A stretch of 64,000 nt of DNA from Sulfurovum sp. AR (GTDB lineage: Bacteria; Campylobacterota; Campylobacteria; Campylobacterales; Sulfurovaceae), in the NCBI RefSeq assembly GCF_000296775.1, contig NZ_AJLE01000006.1, positions 372,001 through 436,000 on the forward strand, written 5' to 3'. The notes below the pieces were generated by a model. The model had not been told where the DNA came from. It worked only from the letters and a program-made list of their open reading frames with translations, and searched no databases. Numbering within the stretch: position 1 is the stretch's first letter; each line of letters opens with the position of its first letter. Both the position numbers and the translations under genes were made by a program. This document shows positions 8,130 to 35,550 of this stretch, piece by piece.

Positions 8130-9287
8130 CTAAATATTTAAATATTTTTTGATATCTTCTACCCTATCTGTTTTCTCCCAGCTAAAACCTTCTTCTTCTC
8201 TTCCGAAGTGACCATACGCTGCTGTTCTGCGGTATATAGGTCTAAGTAGATCCAACGCATCCATAATACCTTTAGGGGTAAGATCGAAAAGTGATTCTAC
8301 ACACGCTGTGATCTTTGATTCATCCACTGTTGCGGTCCCATGTGTATCTACATAGATAGACACCGGTTTAGCCACACCGATTGCATACGCTATTTGCAGT
8401 GTGGCTTTATCACATACACCTGCAGCTACAAGGTTTTTCGCTACATATCTTGCCGCATAGGCAGCTGAACGATCCACTTTTGTAGGGTCTTTACCAGAGA
8501 AAGCACCCCCACCATGAGGGCAAGAACCCCCATAGGTATCTACAATGATCTTTCTACCTGTAAGTCCGGCATCCCCTTGAGGACCACCGATCACAAAACG
8601 TCCCGTAGGGTTGATGTGATAGGTAATATCATCAGAGATCAACTCTGCGGGTATAACGGCTTTGATCACTTCTTCAAGTACCGCTTTTTGTACCTGTTCA
8701 AGCGTCACTTCCGGATGATGCTGTGTAGATACAACGATCGTATCTATCGCAACAGGTTTGCCATCTACATACTTCACCGAAACCTGCGCTTTTCCATCTG
8801 GACGCAAAAACGGGACAGTACCATTTTTACGGACCTCAGCCAGTTTAGCTGTGATCTTATGTGCCAGTGAGATAGGCAAAGGCATAAGCTCCTTAGTCTC
8901 ATTACAAGCATATCCGAACATCAGTCCCTGATCCCCCGCACCGATCTCACCTGAAGCTTGATCCACACCTTGATTAATATCCGGGCTCTGTTCTCCTATG
9001 CCATTAAGTACTCCCGCAGACCTATAGTCAAAACCATAACTTGCATCTGTGTACCCTATCTCTCTTACAACCTCTCTTGCAATCTCTTGCATCGGTGCAT
9101 ACGCTGTTGTTTTTAGTTCTCCTGCAATAACACAAAAACCATTACTCAATAACGTCTCACAAGCCACTCTCGCCTGTGGATCTTTTTCGATGATATAATC
9201 AAGTATAGCATCTGAGATCTGATCAGCCATTTTATCCGGATGACCCTCGGTTACCGATTCACTTGTAAAAATGTATTCGTTAGCCAT
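8130..9287 (-). CDS. metK: S-adenosylmethionine synthetase
   Basis: Makes SAM from methionine and ATP. The 385-residue protein shows GHPDK at 15-19, the GAGDQG motif in [12 protein letters not shown], and the P-loop-like [16 protein letters not shown] block. AAGGA precedes ATG at 9287. A 205-nt gap with strong hairpins separates it from dxs upstream (see separate entry). Confidence 0.98.
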
Positions 9288-9492
9288 TTTTTTCCTTTAT
9301 TTAGTTTCTCATTGAAGTATGGCAAAGCCATGCTTCAATTTCCCAGAGAATATACCCTTTGGAGTACCTTTCACTGAAGTTTCACCATTTGGTTCAGAGA
9401 ATTTTGAAATATTTGTTCACTGTCACTGAACTTGATACAATACCTCAAAAGGTACTGTATCAAATACAGTTCCGATGCAGAAGAAACCTCTT
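9288..9492 (-). promoter_or_regulatory. Structured dxs-metK intergenic region with competing hairpins
   Basis: Three stems are visible. GAAGTATGGC-AAA-GCCATGCTTC lies near 9314-9336. A 13-bp stem pairs TTGATACAATACC with GGTACTGTATCAA (about 9430-9461). A 7-bp stem ACTGTAT-CAA-ATACAGT shares its first arm with the 13-bp stem, so these two cannot form together. None has a U tract after it in the leftward direction. No known SAM-riboswitch signature is recognised. Confidence 0.45.
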
Positions 9493-27587: not shown

Positions 27588-28174
27588 TCTTCAGTCTTTA
27601 TATAGAGGTAATTTCGTTGATTTTTTTGTACTATATCATATCTTAGCTGATGTTGTACATCTTCTATCTCATCAAATACACGTGACCCTTTGTAAAAGAG
27701 ATACTCAGTGTGTGCATCACTAACCTTAGAGGTCAGATCTAAAAGCAGTTTTGTGTTTGTCACAGCGCGTGAACTGATGAGATCAAACGCATCATGCTCC
27801 ACGGTTTCAACCCTCTTTGCTTCTACAGTGACATTGGGAAGTTCCAAGTCTATAGCTGCATACTTTAAAAAAGAGACACGCTTCTTAAGAGGCTCGGCAA
27901 GCACTACCTTGGTATCGGGCTGTGCTATCGCAAGTACAAGTCCAGGAAATCCTGCACCAGTGCCTACATCTAACAGTGTTTTTGGGTTTTTTATAAAAGT
28001 CAAAGGGTACAGCGAATCCACGATATTGACATAAATAGCCTCTATGGTTTTAGCCCCCGTAAGGTTGTGGATCTGGTTCCATTCATGCAAAAGTAAAGCA
28101 AAACGCTCCAGCTTTACGATGATCTCACTTGACAGTAGGATCCCTTCTTTATCTAAGTGTTGCGACAGATTCAA
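27584..28174 (-). CDS. rsmG: 16S rRNA (guanine527-N7) methyltransferase RsmG
   Basis: Methylates G527 of 16S rRNA using SAM. The 196-residue protein has motif [18 protein letters not shown] and a catalytic-region block SSRAVTN. Its start overlaps the stop of the PqqD-like gene by 4 nt. In C. jejuni, to my recollection, rsmG (gidB) lies next to ribA. Here about 7.4 kb separates them, filled by the lasso island. Confidence 0.96.
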
Positions 28175-28449
28175 TTCTCTTTTACCTCTACCAACCCACT
28201 CTCAACCAACTTGTCTACAAAATCAGAAAGATCTTTCTTCAATACCTCTTCTTCCACAGCATACTGTTCTAACAGTGCATTAAACACCTCTTGCAACGTT
28301 CCATACTCCTGCATTGCCTGCCAAATAGCCGTACCTACTTCATCCAACCCGAAGTAGTTTTCACTCTCCATATCCAAAAGTACCATTTCACCATCGACTT
28401 TTTGTGCGAAAACCGTCTCTACAAATATCACTGTTTGATTGAGGTTCAT
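28171..28449 (-). CDS. PqqD-like peptide-recognition protein (lasso B1/RRE)
   Basis: A 92-residue PqqD-fold protein. These RiPP recognition elements bind leader peptides and present them to processing enzymes. The family pattern [20 protein letters not shown] lies at 23-42, followed by helices ([31 protein letters not shown]). It is the only B1-type gene in the window, and B2, C, K, D and A lie 2-7 kb away, so it very probably serves them. It is encoded apart from the operon and overlaps rsmG by 4 nt. Its promoter must lie in 28450-28690, and it is divergent from the riboswitches. Confidence 0.88.
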
Positions 28450-28689: not shown

Positions 28690-28769
28690 ATTATTTTGTT
28701 GTGCCAAACTTGTTGTGAAGCAAGGACGGAAAGCCATGGGTCTTACACTGTAAAGATCGCCAGGTTGCC
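28690..28769 (+). ncRNA. Cyclic-di-GMP-I riboswitch (GEMM), tandem copy 1
   Basis: Matches the GEMM-I aptamer: CCAAAC, a 6-bp stem CTTGTT/AGCAAG capped by the GNRA tetraloop GTGA, then GACGGAAAGCC, a second hairpin GGGTCTT...AAGATCGCC, and the closing GGTTGCC. Compared with Vibrio Vc2, position 20 is G, the base that reads c-di-GMP. The 21-46 pair is C-G in place of Vc2 G-C, a compensatory change. The 80 nt are identical to copy 2, 148 nt downstream. No clear terminator lies between the copies. Confidence 0.93.
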
Positions 28770-28837
28770 AAATACTCATCTATGTATTCCCTCTTACTTC
28801 TCCATTAGTTTATCTATCAAATTTTATTTAATTCAAA

Positions 28838-28917
28838 ATTATTTTGTTGTGCCAAACTTGTTGTGAAGCAAGGACGGAAAGCCATGGGTCTTACACTGTA
28901 AAGATCGCCAGGTTGCC
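28838..28917 (+). ncRNA. Cyclic-di-GMP-I riboswitch (GEMM), tandem copy 2
   Basis: Exact 80-nt duplicate of copy 1, with all aptamer features. The AT-rich closing helix uses different flanks: ATTATTT upstream against AAATAAAT downstream. About 180 nt of leader lie between it and the subtilase ATG at 29099. A weak stem GAAAGT-N13-ACTTTC with TTT after it (28975-29003) could be part of the expression platform. The on/off direction cannot be read with confidence. Confidence 0.93.
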
Positions 28918-29098
28918 TAAATAAATTATATTATTTTTAACAGAACATAAAATATGATTATTGTTTTTTGGGAGAAAGTTATACATTTTTAGACTTTCTT
29001 TACATTCATTTGTTATGATCCCCCGCCAAATCAAATAGAAATGATAGTAAAACTATAATTTGATGTTGAAAATAATTTATTATTATAGGAGATATAAT

Positions 29099-30238
29099 AT
29101 GCGAAAAAATAAATTCTTTAACCTTTATGCCATCCTTTTGTCTATATTGACTTTTACCTCGGCAATGTTTGCATCACCTGCAGAAACACCACGTAAAATC
29201 ATCGTTTTCCAAAAAAGTTTCTCGAATAAAGCTGCGCAAGTAGACTTAATAAAAAAAACCGGTGCGATACCCATCAAACCGCTGAAGATCATCAACGGTA
29301 TGGCAGTCTATCTTCCTGAGCAGGCACAAAGTGCACTTGAAGAGCATTTAGGTGCTGAGATCGTACGTATCGATGAAGATATCATAGTGCATGGAACTGC
29401 TCCGGGTGGAGGAGAACAACCACTGCAAGAGCTTCCGTGGGGCATTGACAGGATCGAAGCAGATATCGCCTGGGGAGACTCCAACGGTACTATGGTCAAT
29501 GTTGCCATTCTCGATACCGGAGCTAATCTCGATCACTTGGACCTGATCGACAATATCAAAGGAAACTATAATGCCATCAGTTCAAGAAAAAGCGCTGCAG
29601 ACGATCATGGCCACGGGACACATGTCACAGGTATCATCGGGGCAGTGAATAACACGATAGGTGTTGTCGGTGTAGGGCCGCAGATAAACCTCTACCCTGT
29701 CAAAGTTCTGGACCGTAAAAATGAAGGAGCACTCTCTGATATTCTTGATGGAATGCAGTGGTGTATCGACAACAATATGCAGGTAGTCAATATGAGTTTT
29801 GGTGCTCTCTACTCAAACCAGTCATTACAGGATGCAGTTATCGCACTCCATAATGCCGGTATCGTTCAGGTTGCAGCTGCTGGAAATACGGGCGGTGCCA
29901 TTCTCTACCCAGCCAAATATCCTGAAACTATCGCTGTATCGTCTGTCGACTCTGCTGATCTGTTGGCTGCAAGTTCAGCCAGAGGAGCAGAGATCGATCT
30001 GGCGGCTCCTGGTGTAGGAATCAATTCTACCGCTATTGATGGATTATATACAACCATGAGCGGGACCAGTATGGCATCACCTCATGTCACAGGAGCAGCC
30101 GCACTGGTACTCTCAGTACATGGAGCACTTACACCAAATGAAGTCAAAGCTAAACTGAAAAACAGTGCGGAAGATTTGGGTTTATTATCAAATGAACAAG
30201 GAGCCGGACTCGTTCGAGCTGATCTAGCAATCTATTAG
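29099..30238 (+). CDS. Secreted S8 subtilisin-like protease with I9-type propeptide
   Basis: Exported serine protease of 379 residues. ATG 29099 follows AGGAGA at 29087-29092; the frame is open to a TTG at 29060 without support. Residues 1-25 are a signal peptide, about 32-98 an inhibitor-I9-like propeptide, and 115-379 the catalytic domain. Catalytic residues are D139 (AILDTGAN), H172 (GHGTHV), oxyanion N263 (AAGNTGG) and S324 (SGTSMASPH). It stands under two tandem c-di-GMP riboswitches and converges on the lasso operon. Possible roles include trimming the exported peptide, attacking competitors' proteins or matrix turnover; none is shown by sequence. Confidence 0.95.
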   Translation: MRKNKFFNLYAILLSILTFTSAMFASPAETPRKIIVFQKSFSNKAAQVDLIKKTGAIPIKPLKIINGMAVYLPEQAQSALEEHLGAEIVRIDEDIIVHGTAPGGGEQPLQELPWGIDRIEADIAWGDSNGTMVNVAILDTGANLDHLDLIDNIKGNYNAISSRKSAADDHGHGTHVTGIIGAVNNTIGVVGVGPQINLYPVKVLDRKNEGALSDILDGMQWCIDNNMQVVNMSFGALYSNQSLQDAVIALHNAGIVQVAAAGNTGGAILYPAKYPETIAVSSVDSADLLAASSARGAEIDLAAPGVGINSTAIDGLYTTMSGTSMASPHVTGAAALVLSVHGALTPNEVKAKLKNSAEDLGLLSNEQGAGLVRADLAIY

Positions 30239-30253
30239 GATACACAAAGTACA

Positions 30254-30283
30254 CAGGGAAAGAAAAAACTTCCCTGCTTTTTT
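30254..30283 (+). terminator. Rho-independent terminator after subtilase gene
   Basis: CAGGGAA (30254-30260) pairs with TTCCCTG (30270-30276) around a 9-nt A-rich loop, followed by CTTTTTT. It is orientated for the rightward subtilase transcript and lies 16 nt before the end of the convergent precursor gene. Confidence 0.85.
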
Positions 30284-30299
30284 AGGCTCTATGAAGTTA

Positions 30300-30476
30300 C
30301 TAAGGAGTAACTGTACCAGCACCACCAAACCCGGTATCTTGCCCCTTATTATAATGTGTGCTACTTGTACCATCGGCACCTGCTGTCGATTTATTATATT
30401 GGGTTTTAGTTCCAATTTTCCCTAAATTTTTTATTTCCGGTTTATTATATTTTTTTATACTAAAGTTTTTTTTCAT
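30300..30476 (-). CDS. Lasso peptide precursor (A)
   Basis: A 58-residue precursor. ATG 30476 has GAGGG 5 nt upstream; an earlier in-frame ATG at 30488 has no ribosome site. The leader carries the YxxPx(I/L) recognition motif, Y10-N-K-P13-E-I15, then L18-G19. From G19 the usual G-x5-T-x spacing reaches T25-Q26, so a core could start at Y27 with D35 at ring position 9. A second site has T37-S38 before S39, with D47 at ring position 9. The C-terminal part is Gly/Thr-rich (GFGGAGTVTP). It overlaps the cyclase gene by 17 nt and is last in its operon. No homologue is recognised. Confidence 0.82.
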   Translation of the reverse strand: MKKNFSIKKYNKPEIKNLGKIGTKTQYNKSTAGADGTSSTHYNKGQDTGFGGAGTVTP

Positions 30477-32316
30477 CCTTACCCTCATTTCTATTTATTT
30501 CTAACCAATTTTCCAAATTACAGAGAGTCCATAAATTAAGAAGATTTTCTGTTAGCATATTGCCAGAAAAATATTCCCTTGTCAAATGCGCTGAAGTCTC
30601 TTCCTTTAGGAGTTCCAAATTAATTAAATTCTGGTGAGATATATTTGAATCGGTAAATATTTGTTTCATTTGTAATTCTATCCCAGGAACTAAACTGGTT
30701 TTATTATTTCTATACAAAACACTATCTGGTACAATACCATCCATGGCCAATTTTAGTATATTTTTATATATTCCGCAATGATGAAGATACTCGGGAGGTA
30801 AACTGATAATGAATTCAACTAGCTTCGTATCAAAAAAGGGATAACGAACTTCAATCCCATCATTGCTATAGTTTTGTAATGCATTAAAATCAATCCAATA
30901 AGAGAAGTGCGGTGAGAGAAAATCTAATCCAAATAATTTTATGTACTTATTATCAACTTCTTTATCAAGTTCGATCTCTTTCATATACAAAGTATTTTTA
31001 AAGAATAGTTTTGATTGTACATGATTAATGGTATTATGAATACTCTCTTTCAAACGATCAACAAAAAATAATGAAAAGATAAACTTAATGAAAATAGACT
31101 TTGACTGCGCTCGTCTTCCAATACATCTTATTGTTTTAAAAAGTTGCACAAACTTTAAATCTTTCAAATGCTGTAACATAAATGAATCATCTCCTCCAAG
31201 TACCTCATCTGCTCCCATTCCAGTGATGACCACCCTAGTTCCACGTTTAGAAAGTATCCTATTCTTCATCACAAATTCAATGAAATTACCTCTCTGAGGG
31301 ATATTCGGAAACTTTGCGTAAAAATTTGACAGATTATACTTTGTAAAGTCTATTTCATTGATATCAAACTTGAGAATATCTGATTTGAACTTTTTTTCTA
31401 ATTGTTGAATATAGTATGTCTCATCACTTGCTAGACCTTTATGTTGCATAGTATGCGCTGTAAATCGCTGTGTCATACCCATTGATATAGCTACAGAATA
31501 TATTGACGAAGAATCCAATCCTCCACTGAGTTCAACTGATAGAGGGTGTGATGATCTCAAAGAAGATTTAACTGCATTATGAAATAAGGTAGAAAATTCT
31601 TTTGCAGCCTCTTCTAATGATATGGTGCTATTGGTTTGAATCTTTTCTGGATACCAATATCTTTCCATTTTAAATTGATTTTTTGATATTGTCATCCAAT
31701 TAGATGAGGGGAGCCGTTTTATCTCTTCAAAAAAACTTTCACTTCGATCCAATGCCATAAACTTGATATACTTTTTAACAGATTGTATATCTAAAACTCT
31801 ATTGAGAAATCCTGATGCAAAAATTGGCTCAATAGAAGTGGCAAATATTAATATTTCTTTATTGTAATAGTAATAAAGTTGTCGAACTCCAAATCTATCT
31901 CTAGATACGAAAAGTTTTTTTTCTTTATTATTCCAAATTGCAAATGCAAAATCACCATTCAAATAGCTTGGACAATGCTTCCCCCACTTTTGATAGGACC
32001 ATAAAATCAAATCTGCGTCAGTGATTTTATCAAAATTGGTTGCTTTTCTGCCTAATTTTTCAATTAATTCAGAACGATTATCCAAGCGTATATCTGCAGC
32101 CAATACTAGATTCTCATCTTCCGATATTAAAGGTTGTTTTTCATATAATGATTCAGGCGTTGTACATAACATTTTATGGCCTAACCCTATACTACCATCA
32201 ATCCAAATACCTTCTGTATCACTCCCCTGTATTTTCATCGTATCAAGCATTCTTTGAATTGTTTCTTTATTTACCGGTTTATCGTCAAACCTGATAATCC
32301 CACAGATACCACTCAT
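30460..32316 (-). CDS. Lasso cyclase, asparagine synthetase-like (C)
   Basis: Lasso C proteins adenylate the side chain of the ring Asp/Glu and close the isopeptide bond to the core N-terminus. The 618-residue protein has an N-terminal Ntn-glutaminase-like domain (1-190) and a synthetase domain with the PPi loop SGGLDSS at 264-270 and GMGADEVLGGDD near 365-376. The N-terminus is MSGICGI: where AsnB has the nucleophile Cys2, this has Ser2, as in lasso cyclases that need no ammonia. The coding sequence is visibly more AT-rich than neighbouring housekeeping genes. Its ATG overlaps the kinase stop by 4 nt. Confidence 0.92.
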   Translation of the reverse strand: MSGICGIIRFDDKPVNKETIQRMLDTMKIQGSDTEGIWIDGSIGLGHKMLCTTPESLYEKQPLISEDENLVLAADIRLDNRSELIEKLGRKATNFDKITDADLILWSYQKWGKHCPSYLNGDFAFAIWNNKEKKLFVSRDRFGVRQLYYYYNKEILIFATSIEPIFASGFLNRVLDIQSVKKYIKFMALDRSESFFEEIKRLPSSNWMTISKNQFKMERYWYPEKIQTNSTISLEEAAKEFSTLFHNAVKSSLRSSHPLSVELSGGLDSSSIYSVAISMGMTQRFTAHTMQHKGLASDETYYIQQLEKKFKSDILKFDINEIDFTKYNLSNFYAKFPNIPQRGNFIEFVMKNRILSKRGTRVVITGMGADEVLGGDDSFMLQHLKDLKFVQLFKTIRCIGRRAQSKSIFIKFIFSLFFVDRLKESIHNTINHVQSKLFFKNTLYMKEIELDKEVDNKYIKLFGLDFLSPHFSYWIDFNALQNYSNDGIEVRYPFFDTKLVEFIISLPPEYLHHCGIYKNILKLAMDGIVPDSVLYRNNKTSLVPGIELQMKQIFTDSNISHQNLINLELLKEETSAHLTREYFSGNMLTENLLNLWTLCNLENWLEINRNEGKDEKKL

Positions 32317-33197
32317 GATAAACCTTTGCTATGCTGACAGATACTATCATGCACTTCACTAAGACGTTCCATATCCCAAGGTATCTGAACACGAAAAACC
32401 TTTATAGTGTTAAGCATTTGAGAAAGATGCTTCAGTCGTTTTGGCTTTAGAAAAGAGAATAAATAAATATTATTTGCTAAAAGGTTGTCAAACTTTTCAA
32501 ACCCTCTAATTTCTTCAAATGATACTTCATTACTTTCATCCACACCTTCCAATACATAAAAAACATGAATAGGTTTAAAGTCAGTTATGAAATTGTCAAC
32601 ATGGTAACCTAAATCTTCAGCTTTCCTGTATGGACGATGATAAGGAAATGAACCCACAGCCATAAATTTACCATCCTTTATAAAAGTCGGAACCTTATCA
32701 TCAGAAACAAGTGTATGTCCCTGCTTGATAAAGTAATCCGTCATGGTTGATTTACCACCCATGGAAGGCGCAATGAATAGTATAGGTTTTCCTTCTACTT
32801 CGACTGCACCTGCATGAAGAAAATCGTATTGCTCCTCCAAGGTAAGATAAAGCGGTAACATCAGGTGAATAAACCAAAAACTCAACAGATTAGAATCACC
32901 TTCTTTATCTAGTTCATAGTAAATCGTCCTCTCTCCTCCAAGCCAATAAAAACGAACTACATCAGCAACTTCATAACAAAATGGCTGCCTTGCTTCATTC
33001 CTCTCAAATTCACGATCACTATAGAAATATACATTACGCCCATGAGCCCAATAAGCCGGAAAACCGCAGATAATAAATGTTTTGAATTTATCTGGTACTC
33101 TTGAAGAGAGTTCTACTTCATATCGTGAAGTTGTTTCATGCGATAGATCCAGAGGGAAGTCAATGTCGCTTTTAATCCGTGTACCATATACTATCAT
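32313..33197 (-). CDS. HPr kinase/phosphorylase-like protein of lasso cluster (K)
   Basis: A 294-residue protein with an HPr-kinase C-terminal-type fold: LHAGAVEVEGKPI, P-loop APSMGGKST at 143-151, then LVSDDKVP. No HPr is encoded nearby. In paeninodin-type lasso clusters such kinases phosphorylate the precursor C-terminal Ser. Here the precursor ends in TVTP, so the target, if any, must be a Thr or an internal Ser. ATG 33197 overlaps the B2 stop as ATGA; the frame is open to a TTG at 33209. Confidence 0.88.
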   Translation of the reverse strand: MIVYGTRIKSDIDFPLDLSHETTSRYEVELSSRVPDKFKTFIICGFPAYWAHGRNVYFYSDREFERNEARQPFCYEVADVVRFYWLGGERTIYYELDKEGDSNLLSFWFIHLMLPLYLTLEEQYDFLHAGAVEVEGKPILFIAPSMGGKSTMTDYFIKQGHTLVSDDKVPTFIKDGKFMAVGSFPYHRPYRKAEDLGYHVDNFITDFKPIHVFYVLEGVDESNEVSFEEIRGFEKFDNLLANNIYLFSFLKPKRLKHLSQMLNTIKVFRVQIPWDMERLSEVHDSICQHSKGLS

Positions 33198-33652
33198 TCG
33201 TTTCCCCAACCAAACGTCGAAATCACCGTAAACTCTTCATATCCTTTAACCCCTGTAAGTATCATATCGCCACACTGGGACCAGGCATGTGCTTTCATCT
33301 TCTCTTCAACATTTTTATCTTTTGCTACCCCAAGATAAAAAACCCCTGGAATACCGCGTTTTTGCAGCATTTTCTGTGCAGTAAGTGACTGTACCAGACA
33401 TGCACTCTCCCAGGGAGTATGTTCAGCTGCTCTGGTGACTGCATGCCCTACTAAAGTTGCAGTCTGCATCTCATCACCCGTCAATGGGATTACCTCACCT
33501 TTGCTTTTTTGATGCTCCAAAGAACGAGTTAACCGCTTAAAAGAGAGAGTCAAAATCGCTGCACGCATGATGCCAAGCATGATATAGGCTTCCAAGAAAA
33601 GTTTCTTCTCTCTACTAGACAATTTAATAAATTTTTGTATTTTTCTCAGCAT
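33194..33652 (-). CDS. Lasso leader peptidase, transglutaminase-like (B2)
   Basis: Cuts the leader from the precursor after B1 has bound it. The 152-residue protein shows the family catalytic cysteine C85 in ESACLVQSLTAQ and histidine H122 in AHAWSQCGD; D129 may complete the triad. The N-terminal helices (1-80) match B2 proteins. It lacks its own B1 domain, so the separate PqqD-like protein is needed. Its start overlaps the exporter gene by 29 nt. Confidence 0.92.
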   Translation of the reverse strand: MLRKIQKFIKLSSREKKLFLEAYIMLGIMRAAILTLSFKRLTRSLEHQKSKGEVIPLTGDEMQTATLVGHAVTRAAEHTPWESACLVQSLTAQKMLQKRGIPGVFYLGVAKDKNVEEKMKAHAWSQCGDMILTGVKGYEEFTVISTFGWGNE

Positions 33653-35408
33653 AAAAATCTTCCTGTATCAGTCCTCTTTTCCGAAGTTCACCATAACTTC
33701 CCTCTGCCTTTACACGCCCATCATCAATGAAATAGATACGATCTGCCTGTTTGATCGTTGTCGTCCTGTGTGCTATGATGATTGTGGTACGGTCTTTAAG
33801 AAATGTCTCTAGTGTTTCATAGAGATGATACTCTGTTTCGTTATCTAAGGCAGATGTGGATTCATCAAATATAACGATCTTTGGATCTGAGAGTATCAAC
33901 CTGGCTATGGCGAGCCGTTGACGCTGTCCTCCAGAGAGACGGATACCGTTTTTACCGATATGTGTTTCCAGACCATTTTCTAACTTAGAGACAAACTCTT
34001 CAAGCTGTGCCGCTTTCAGTGCTTCATAGATCTCAGTCTCGCTTTTTTCTTTGAAAAGAGTGAGATTCATACGAATAGTATCGTTGAAAAAGAGTGCTTC
34101 TTGTAACATGAGTGCCGTATTCTCGCGTACGATGGGTAAGCCTATCTGTTCTATGGGGATACCTCCATACAGTATCTCCCCGGCATGTGAAGGGTAAAAC
34201 CCTACCGTGATCTGGGCAATGGTGGTTTTACCACTTCCGCTAGGACCAATAAGTGCGATCTTTTGCCCTTCTTTTGCTTTTAAACTTATATTGTGCAGTA
34301 CCTCTTTACCATTATCATAGGCAAAAGATATCTCTTTTAACTCCACAGAAGTCGTTTTTTTATCTTCAAATGGGTTACACTCATGTGGATAATGTGGTTC
34401 ATGGGAAAGAGTAAGTAATGTATTGATACGTTCAAGTGCCGGTTTGATAGTTTGATAGGAGATGACCAATCCCATCAATTGCTGCATAGGAGAAACAAGA
34501 GTAGAAAGGTAAAAAAGAAAAGCTATCATCATTCCAACGGTTAAGTCTGAATATGCCACTGCAGCGATGCCCAGTACTCGAAAGATATCCACTACCATAT
34601 TGGTCAAAAGTGTAGATGAAGTTTGTGCAACAGAAGCTTTGTACCCATAGTCAAGTGATGCCGACTCGATCTCTTTTGCACGTCCCTGAAGAATACCAAA
34701 GAAACTTCGTTCCTGGTTGCTCACACGTACCTGTATAAAAAGTTCAAGTGTTTCATTCAGGAGTTCATGATACATTTCATAGGCTTTATATTGACGTCGA
34801 AGCAGTTCTCCTGTCTTACGTCCCAAAAGTTTAGAAAAAGCTAAGAAAAAAGGATTGAGTAAAAACACCAATAATGCCAAGACCCAATTCATCCAAAGCA
34901 TGATCACAGCGATACCCAGCAGCATGAGAGAAGCACTTAAAAGTGTGGTAACTATCTGTCCGGCAAAACCACTGATACTCTCTACATCCTGCACACTCTT
35001 TGAAGCGATGTTCCCTGACTTCAGTGACTCATATTCTGAAAGTGAGATACGTTCTAAATGATGTAAGATTCGATGTCGTAGTAGATAACTTATCTTTTGT
35101 GTGATTTTAGTTGCGTAGAAAGTTTTTTTGTTATTCAAAAAAAATGCTAGAAATCTCAATGTGAGTATCACTGCGAGTATCACAGAGATATACAACCAAA
35201 CTTCAGAATTCCCAAAGATACTGGAAATGAATTCTGTCATCTTCCCTGGATGCCCGAGCAGGACCTCGTCTATCAAAAGAGGCATAAGCATTGGGATAGG
35301 AAGCAAAAGCAACGTTGCACCTATCCCCAACAGGTTGGTACGCCAAAAATCTCTCTCTTGTGCCTTTATCTGATCATGGAGTGTCTTAAATGTATACTTG
35401 CCTGTCAT
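33624..35408 (-). CDS. Lasso peptide ABC exporter (D)
   Basis: A 594-residue half-transporter with six membrane segments (about 25-320) and a nucleotide-binding domain: Walker A GPSGSGKT at 388-395, signature LSGGQRQR at 491-498, Walker B IVIFDE at 511-516. It lacks the C39 peptidase domain of bacteriocin exporters, consistent with B1/B2 removing the leader. It is the first gene of the D-B2-K-C-A operon and starts about 33 nt after the third riboswitch. Confidence 0.93.
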   Translation of the reverse strand: MTGKYTFKTLHDQIKAQERDFWRTNLLGIGATLLLLPIPMLMPLLIDEVLLGHPGKMTEFISSIFGNSEVWLYISVILAVILTLRFLAFFLNNKKTFYATKITQKISYLLRHRILHHLERISLSEYESLKSGNIASKSVQDVESISGFAGQIVTTLLSASLMLLGIAVIMLWMNWVLALLVFLLNPFFLAFSKLLGRKTGELLRRQYKAYEMYHELLNETLELFIQVRVSNQERSFFGILQGRAKEIESASLDYGYKASVAQTSSTLLTNMVVDIFRVLGIAAVAYSDLTVGMMIAFLFYLSTLVSPMQQLMGLVISYQTIKPALERINTLLTLSHEPHYPHECNPFEDKKTTSVELKEISFAYDNGKEVLHNISLKAKEGQKIALIGPSGSGKTTIAQITVGFYPSHAGEILYGGIPIEQIGLPIVRENTALMLQEALFFNDTIRMNLTLFKEKSETEIYEALKAAQLEEFVSKLENGLETHIGKNGIRLSGGQRQRLAIARLILSDPKIVIFDESTSALDNETEYHLYETLETFLKDRTTIIIAHRTTTIKQADRIYFIDDGRVKAEGSYGELRKRGLIQEDFYAEKNTKIY

Positions 35409-35440
35409 CTTAACCTATTGTTTTGTTCCGTACATTAAGT

Positions 35441-35530
35441 TAGGTAACCTGGCAATCTTCTCTGTTACTATCAAATGATAGTATGAAAGACCCATGGCTT
35501 TCTGACCCTGCCTCACAACAGGTGTAGCAT
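35441..35530 (-). ncRNA. Cyclic-di-GMP-I riboswitch (GEMM) of the lasso operon
   Basis: On the leftward strand: a 6-bp stem CCTGTT/GGCAGG capped by GTGA, then GTCAGAAAGCCATGGGTCTT, a longer P3 arm than the tandem copies, GATTGCCAGG and the closing GGTTACC. Relative to Vibrio Vc2, G20 is kept, pair 21-46 is C-G and pair 22-45 is U-A, both compensatory. It ends about 33 nt before the exporter ATG (35408). ACCTA at its 3' edge is complementary to TAGGT in the ribosome-binding region at 35413-35417. Confidence 0.92.
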
Positions 35531-35550
35531 TTATCTTATCAATTTTTATG

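Follow-up and report, generated by a model that had tools for sequence, protein, structure and literature searches.

A predicted single-core lasso peptide precursor, its putative precursor-cyclase cassette, and neighboring c-di-GMP-I aptamers in Sulfurovum sp. AR

Does a lasso peptide precursor that displays the sequence pattern of a core twice give rise to one ring or to two, and, if to one, at which position? This question is raised by a small gene on the minus strand of the window, the stretch of 64,000 nucleotides of the Sulfurovum sp. AR genome that was analyzed here. The gene (30300 to 30476) encodes a 58-residue protein, MKKNFSIKKYNKPEIKNLGKIGTKTQYNKSTAGADGTSSTHYNKGQDTGFGGAGTVTP, with the coding part at 30303-30476 and the stop codon at 30302-30300. 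Its ATG start (30476-30474) is preceded by GAGGGTAAGG and is overlapped by the end of the cyclase gene. A sequence-only reading had noticed two candidate cores, each with Thr at -2 and Asp at position 9, and a partial T-x-YNK repeat. In the minus-strand translation, both patterns (T25-Q26 before Y27..D35, and T37-S38 before S39..D47) are present exactly as described, and the repeat is found at residues 25-29 and 40-44. D35 and D47 are the only acidic residues past the leader, so the choice of ring really lies between those two.

The same reading had called the protein a lasso precursor, an assignment supported by the adjacent cyclase, B1, B2, kinase, and exporter genes. The asparagine-synthetase-like lasso cyclase C (30460 to 32316, minus strand) has an SGGLDSS motif and no catalytic Cys after Met1. 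It matched PF00733 and GATase_7 above cut-off and scored 395 bits against NF033535 (cut-off, 525), and thus does not belong to that subfamily. The HPr-kinase-like protein (32313 to 33209, minus strand), a predicted precursor kinase, carries His, GGKS, and DD residues resembling those shown to matter in BsfK (PMC10368454). Its match to Hpr_kinase_C was weak (22.6 bits, below the cut-off of 33.3), with the P-loop and DD present, and it is 61-75% identical to the kinases of other lasso clusters. The B2 leader peptidase (33194 to 33652, minus strand) is transglutaminase-like and scored 101 bits against NF033537, which has a curated cut-off of 33. An ABC exporter gene follows at 33624 to 35408 (minus strand). 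The B1 RRE protein (28171 to 28449, minus strand) belongs to the PqqD family (PF05402, above cut-off); lasso_PqqD models were its best NCBIfam matches, below their own cut-offs. Between B1 and the precursor lies the gene of an S8 (subtilisin-like) peptidase (29099 to 30238, plus strand; PF00082) with an apparent signal peptide and intact Asp-His-Ser motifs, whose start was placed at an ATG behind GGAG. By this gene content, which is read directly from the sequence, the predicted cluster is of the kinase-associated, split-B lasso type.

Leader register and the start of the core

With the B2 model, 29 of 175 genomes of the family and 8 of 397 drawn from the phylum proved to contain lasso clusters, and reading such clusters yielded 28 other precursors. 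In every one of the 28, the -2 residue follows the leader Tyr/Trp by 13, 14, or 15 residues; two of them, with spacing 14, were realigned by eye. All have an acidic residue at core position 7, 8, 9, or 10, and the -2 residue is Thr in 27, the exception being Ile in L071. In the window precursor, T25 sits 15 residues after Y10, and T37 would sit at 27. With T25 at -2, Y10 falls at -17, P13 at -14, and I15 at -12, and the lasso features YxxPx[LI], Thr at -2, and Asp/Glu at core position 7-9 are represented by Y10, P13, I15, T25, and D35. When eight relatives with a spacing of 15, those of the two closest cyclases among them, are aligned with the window precursor, Y10, P13, and T25 prove to be invariant. 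A leader position matrix derived from the relatives, with the window excluded, scored the precursor ORF at 16.0, and the runner-up among the ORFs in 16 kb of the window reached 5.8; chance does not account for the leader motif. In a study of one kinase lasso cluster, YxxPxL spans -17 to -12 (PMC10368454), which makes Y27 residue 1. The leader register thus supports one long core starting at Y27, an option that the sequence-only reading had left among several.

The closest cyclases are those of G356 (37% identity) and G041 (36%); no homologue above 37% was found, with none close in viral contigs and none above 60% among plasmids. The precursors beside these two cyclases, YYKAPVLSRLGDMQGLT-K-A... 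in G356 (cut by the contig end) and YARPTLIEIGKIIKKT-Q-GQSGSALDGNG in G041, both have a spacing of 15. Searches for direct homologues of the window precursor returned none at useful scores in its genus and none on plasmids.

Some features count against the Y27 model, among them the Pro at the end of a precursor whose kinase resembles those that mostly accompany Ser-ended precursors. The first core residue of the other 28 precursors is Gly in 17, Ser in 4, Asn in 2, Ala in 2, and Thr, Asp, and Lys in 1 each, and Tyr in none; moreover, the 32-residue core exceeds 27 of the other 28 in length. The true core might instead be S39-P58, with a ring between S39 and D47 and an unusually long leader. 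T37 at -2, Ser1, and Asp9 fit the general rule for such a core, and the statement that Ser is the commoner first residue holds in the collected set (Ser in 4 of 28, Tyr in 0 of 28), but the leader register outweighs it. The spacing from the RRE motif would be 27, compared with 13-15 in the 28 relatives and 15 in the precursors of the nearest cyclases, and no second RRE-binding motif stands at the right distance: no Y/W-x-x-P is found at -17 to -15 before S39. Shuffling alone produces a T(-2)...D/E(7-9) pattern in 35% of tails and 59% of cores, so that the S39/D47 pattern is of almost no evidential value and needs no explanation. We regard a core at S39 as very improbable.

A second alternative is that the precursor holds two tandem ring-forming cores, perhaps through a partial duplication of T-x-YNK. 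It is favored by the TxYNK repeat (residues 25-29 and 40-44) and by the presence of two T..D patterns; the four-of-five TxYNK match reaches an uncorrected p of about 0.04 against shuffles and may be the remnant of a small duplication or chance. However, the amino group for a second ring would have to be freed by cleavage after S38, T37 is off register (27 versus 13-15) with no second recognition motif, and just 12 residues would be left for the first product. None of the 28 relatives has an arrangement that was judged to be two-core, and the two-product clusters L021 and L049 each carry a pair of separate precursors and a pair of cyclases. That one precursor yields two rings, as the sequence-only reading had also entertained, is thus extremely improbable.

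We conclude that 30303-30476 (minus strand) is very probably a single-core lasso precursor with leader 1-26, core Y27-P58, and ring Y27-D35. B1 would bind the leader via Y10-x-x-P13-x-I15, and the adjacent kinase probably phosphorylates the precursor before the leader is removed. B2 would then cut after Q26, and the cyclase would link the Y27 amino group with the D35 side chain. The 23-residue tail, including D47, would thread the resulting ring of 9 residues. The ABC protein would export the product, for which the predicted mass (Y27-P58) is 3128.41 Da.

Several of the collected precursors deserve mention in their own right. Those at L016 11619-11813 and L062 6776-6940 have their sole near-ring acidic residue at core position 10 (GGVSPTSTLD and NQNTITTVTD), which points to a ring of 10 residues or to cleavage at a shifted site. 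L064 7161-7379 (minus strand) has a predicted core of 46 residues, rich in Asn, Ser, Gly, and Arg and longer than the known products cited here. The L071 precursor (9222-9389, plus strand; IIKKDASDID) resembles the bsf type of PMC10368454 in having Ile instead of Thr at -2. At L019 11502-12095 (plus strand), the cyclase frame runs stop-free into precursor sequence, a possible cyclase-precursor fusion or lost stop codon.

Precursor, cyclase, and kinase in a shared backbone

The window was compared with the corresponding locus of G076, a genome listed under the same species. Nucleotide identity of 92-93% stops at 30238, the S8 stop codon, and resumes at 32324, the end of the kinase gene. The block between these boundaries (30239 to 32323), holding the precursor and the cyclase, has no continuous DNA counterpart in G076, where just a short 72% cyclase match was found. 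The corresponding interval of G076 (L049 2435-6563) holds two precursors and two cyclases in 4.1 kb, compared with one of each in the 2.1 kb of the window. The same block boundaries were seen in G036, with flanks that are 84-89% identical. Conserved flanks around differing precursors and cyclases indicate that these two genes move together while the rest stays. They form an exchangeable cassette, and the genes for B1, the S8 peptidase, the kinase, B2, and the exporter make up the conserved backbone around it.

The kinase bears on how well a swapped-in precursor would suit its neighbors. Beside kinases that are at least 60% identical to that of the window, precursors end in Ser in 9 of 11 other cases; beside those less than 50% identical, in none of 9. 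The association between kinase class and C-terminal Ser is suggestive (Fisher p of 0.001 to 0.012, according to how borderline loci are counted), the loci being related and not independent. The window precursor ends in TVTP. Its last residue is Pro, so any phosphorylation site would lie elsewhere, and cassette exchange fits this departure from the Ser-ended substrates usual for the kinase. It might also be that the incoming precursor is no working substrate of the resident kinase, B1, and B2, leaving a non-productive hybrid cluster. Such an outcome would agree with Tyr1 and with the missing C-terminal Ser, both unlike most precursors beside this kinase type. All frames are intact, however, precursor and cyclase overlap as an undisturbed pair, and the leader residues that would contact B1 are canonical, and we therefore consider a dead hybrid quite improbable.

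A further group of small proteins was noticed in passing. L016 5522-5764, L022 807-1004, L054 12238-12450, and L069 4039-4305 encode proteins with a twin-arginine-like RRxFLKKAxY segment and YxxPxLxxLG, three of the four with a GPxGPP-like end. They precede HPr-kinase-like genes in L016, L022, and L054 and are possibly another kinase-modified peptide system.

c-di-GMP-I aptamers and the S8 peptidase

Three c-di-GMP-I aptamers (RF01051) were first seen as a repeat in the same-species comparison. Two form a tandem pair upstream of the S8 gene (28693 to 28772 and 28841 to 28920, plus strand; 61.5 and 60.5 bits), and the third lies in the 5' leader of the exporter-B2-kinase-cyclase-precursor operon (35440 to 35538, minus strand; 51.1 bits). 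All pass the gathering threshold of 35 bits, each reads in the direction of its gene, and all three are retained in G076 and G036. The position that we take to be G20 of Vc2 is G in each of them, which favors c-di-GMP over cGAMP.

Aptamers of the c-di-GMP-I or GGC subtype stand at the clusters of 11 of the 24 lasso-positive genomes of the genus, 20 aptamers in total. Several stand directly before the exporter (L018 and L061) or the precursor (L062 and L055), and others before secreted-protein genes at the head of the cluster (L016, L054, and L069). In a total of about 50 Mb, the 24 genomes carry about 195 aptamers of this kind. At that density, the roughly 330 kb examined should contain about 1.3; the 20 observed are a count inflated by common ancestry and by tandem copies.

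An alternative pairing is predicted in the exporter leader, between the aptamer's 3' strand and the ribosome-binding site. By eye, this pairing is kept with changed bases in several loci (ACCUA/UAGGU in the window, GCCUA/UAGGC in L021, GUUGCC/GGCAAC in L061, and GCUAUAU/AUAUAGU in L062). Such pairing suggests a predicted ON switch in which ligand binding would free the site. The 441-nt leader of the S8 gene folds no better than shuffles (z of 0.12), and no switching mechanism is proposed there. Because the exporter operon and the peptidase gene both carry c-di-GMP-I riboswitches, lasso production is probably raised when c-di-GMP binds the predicted aptamers. No paper joining lasso peptide, c-di-GMP, and riboswitch was found in the open literature (subscription journals lay mostly outside the search), and papers with lasso peptide and c-di-GMP have titles and abstracts in which no link between the two is apparent. 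The novelty of this connection is accordingly provisional.

Close relatives of the S8 peptidase occur in 4 of 399 genomes of the order, all lasso-positive, and two more in G076 and G036. L019 and L020, which come from a different family of the order, conserve the S8 slot between B1 and the precursor. A scan of a collection of genome contigs with the S8 peptidase gave six subtilases, and no lasso genes lie near any of them. The S8 peptidase of G021 occupies two frames (L076 236-1301, minus strand) in a lasso cluster truncated at a contig end; it may be a broken gene or an assembly error.

These data bear on a refinement of the single-core model that does not exclude that model: the Y27-D35 lasso would be made first, and the secreted S8 peptidase would then trim its long tail after export near F50-G51-G52-A53. 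Five clusters, drawn from two families of the order, have the S8 gene next to the precursor. Like the exporter gene, the S8 gene is linked to a riboswitch, and, among the 399 genomes, it is of a type confined to lasso-positive ones. The precursors of L019 and L020 end in VFGGASG and VFGGAAAS after H-Y, resembling HY..FGGA in the window. On the other hand, both of these FGGA-bearing clusters belong to one genus, FGGA is absent from the S8 clusters of G076 and G036, and the peptidase could equally serve immunity, signaling, or an unrelated purpose. As a general S8 recognition signal, FGGA was rejected: it is confined to the window and two same-genus clusters and is missing in the other two S8 clusters, and a recognition role stays speculation. 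Tail trimming by this peptidase is, in our estimate, unlikely.

For the precursor itself, the most likely answer is the ordinary one, a single core placed by the usual leader rule; its Tyr1 is rare and its tail is long. Its setting, with cassette exchange and riboswitches, matters more. Tentatively, the locus can be pictured as a c-di-GMP-gated lasso factory, with a fixed riboswitch-bearing backbone (RRE, leader peptidase, kinase, exporter, and secreted subtilase) and interchangeable precursor-cyclase cassettes; strains of one species would make different lassos under the same lifestyle signal, and the subtilase would finish or clear the product outside the cytoplasm. This picture as a whole is possible rather than probable. 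Its parts suggest that lasso peptides in this group are switched by a second messenger associated with a biofilm or attached lifestyle, that a secreted protease is under the same c-di-GMP control as the lasso operon, and that product identity is changed by swapping precursor and cyclase alone. Such loci are a natural test of how readily sets of B1, B2, kinase, and exporter accept cyclase-precursor pairs of foreign origin, a question of practical interest in lasso engineering.

Comparison with known lasso systems and riboswitches

The aptamers resemble the c-di-GMP-I (GEMM-I) riboswitch RF01051 in sequence and structure; those of the window stand at a lasso peptide operon. In total length, the predicted product is similar to pandonodin and other long-tailed lassos. 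Pandonodin has 33 residues (JACS 2026 review, PMC13352647), which places a core of 32 residues within the known range; unlike pandonodin, the window core has no Cys and thus no disulfide.

The cluster is alike in its split B1/B2, cyclase, HPr-kinase-like protein, and ABC exporter to two systems, the paeninodin/ThcoK type, with phosphorylation of a C-terminal Ser, and bsf of Bradymonas sediminis, in which BsfK acts on core Ser3 (PMC10368454). The YxxPx[LI] leader and Thr at -2 are shared as well, except that bsf has Ile at -2. By comparison with the paeninodin type, an HPr-kinase-like gene is present in the operon but the C-terminal Ser is absent. The window differs from both types in its Tyr1, its 32-residue core without a C-terminal Ser, its S8 neighbor, and its predicted riboswitch control.
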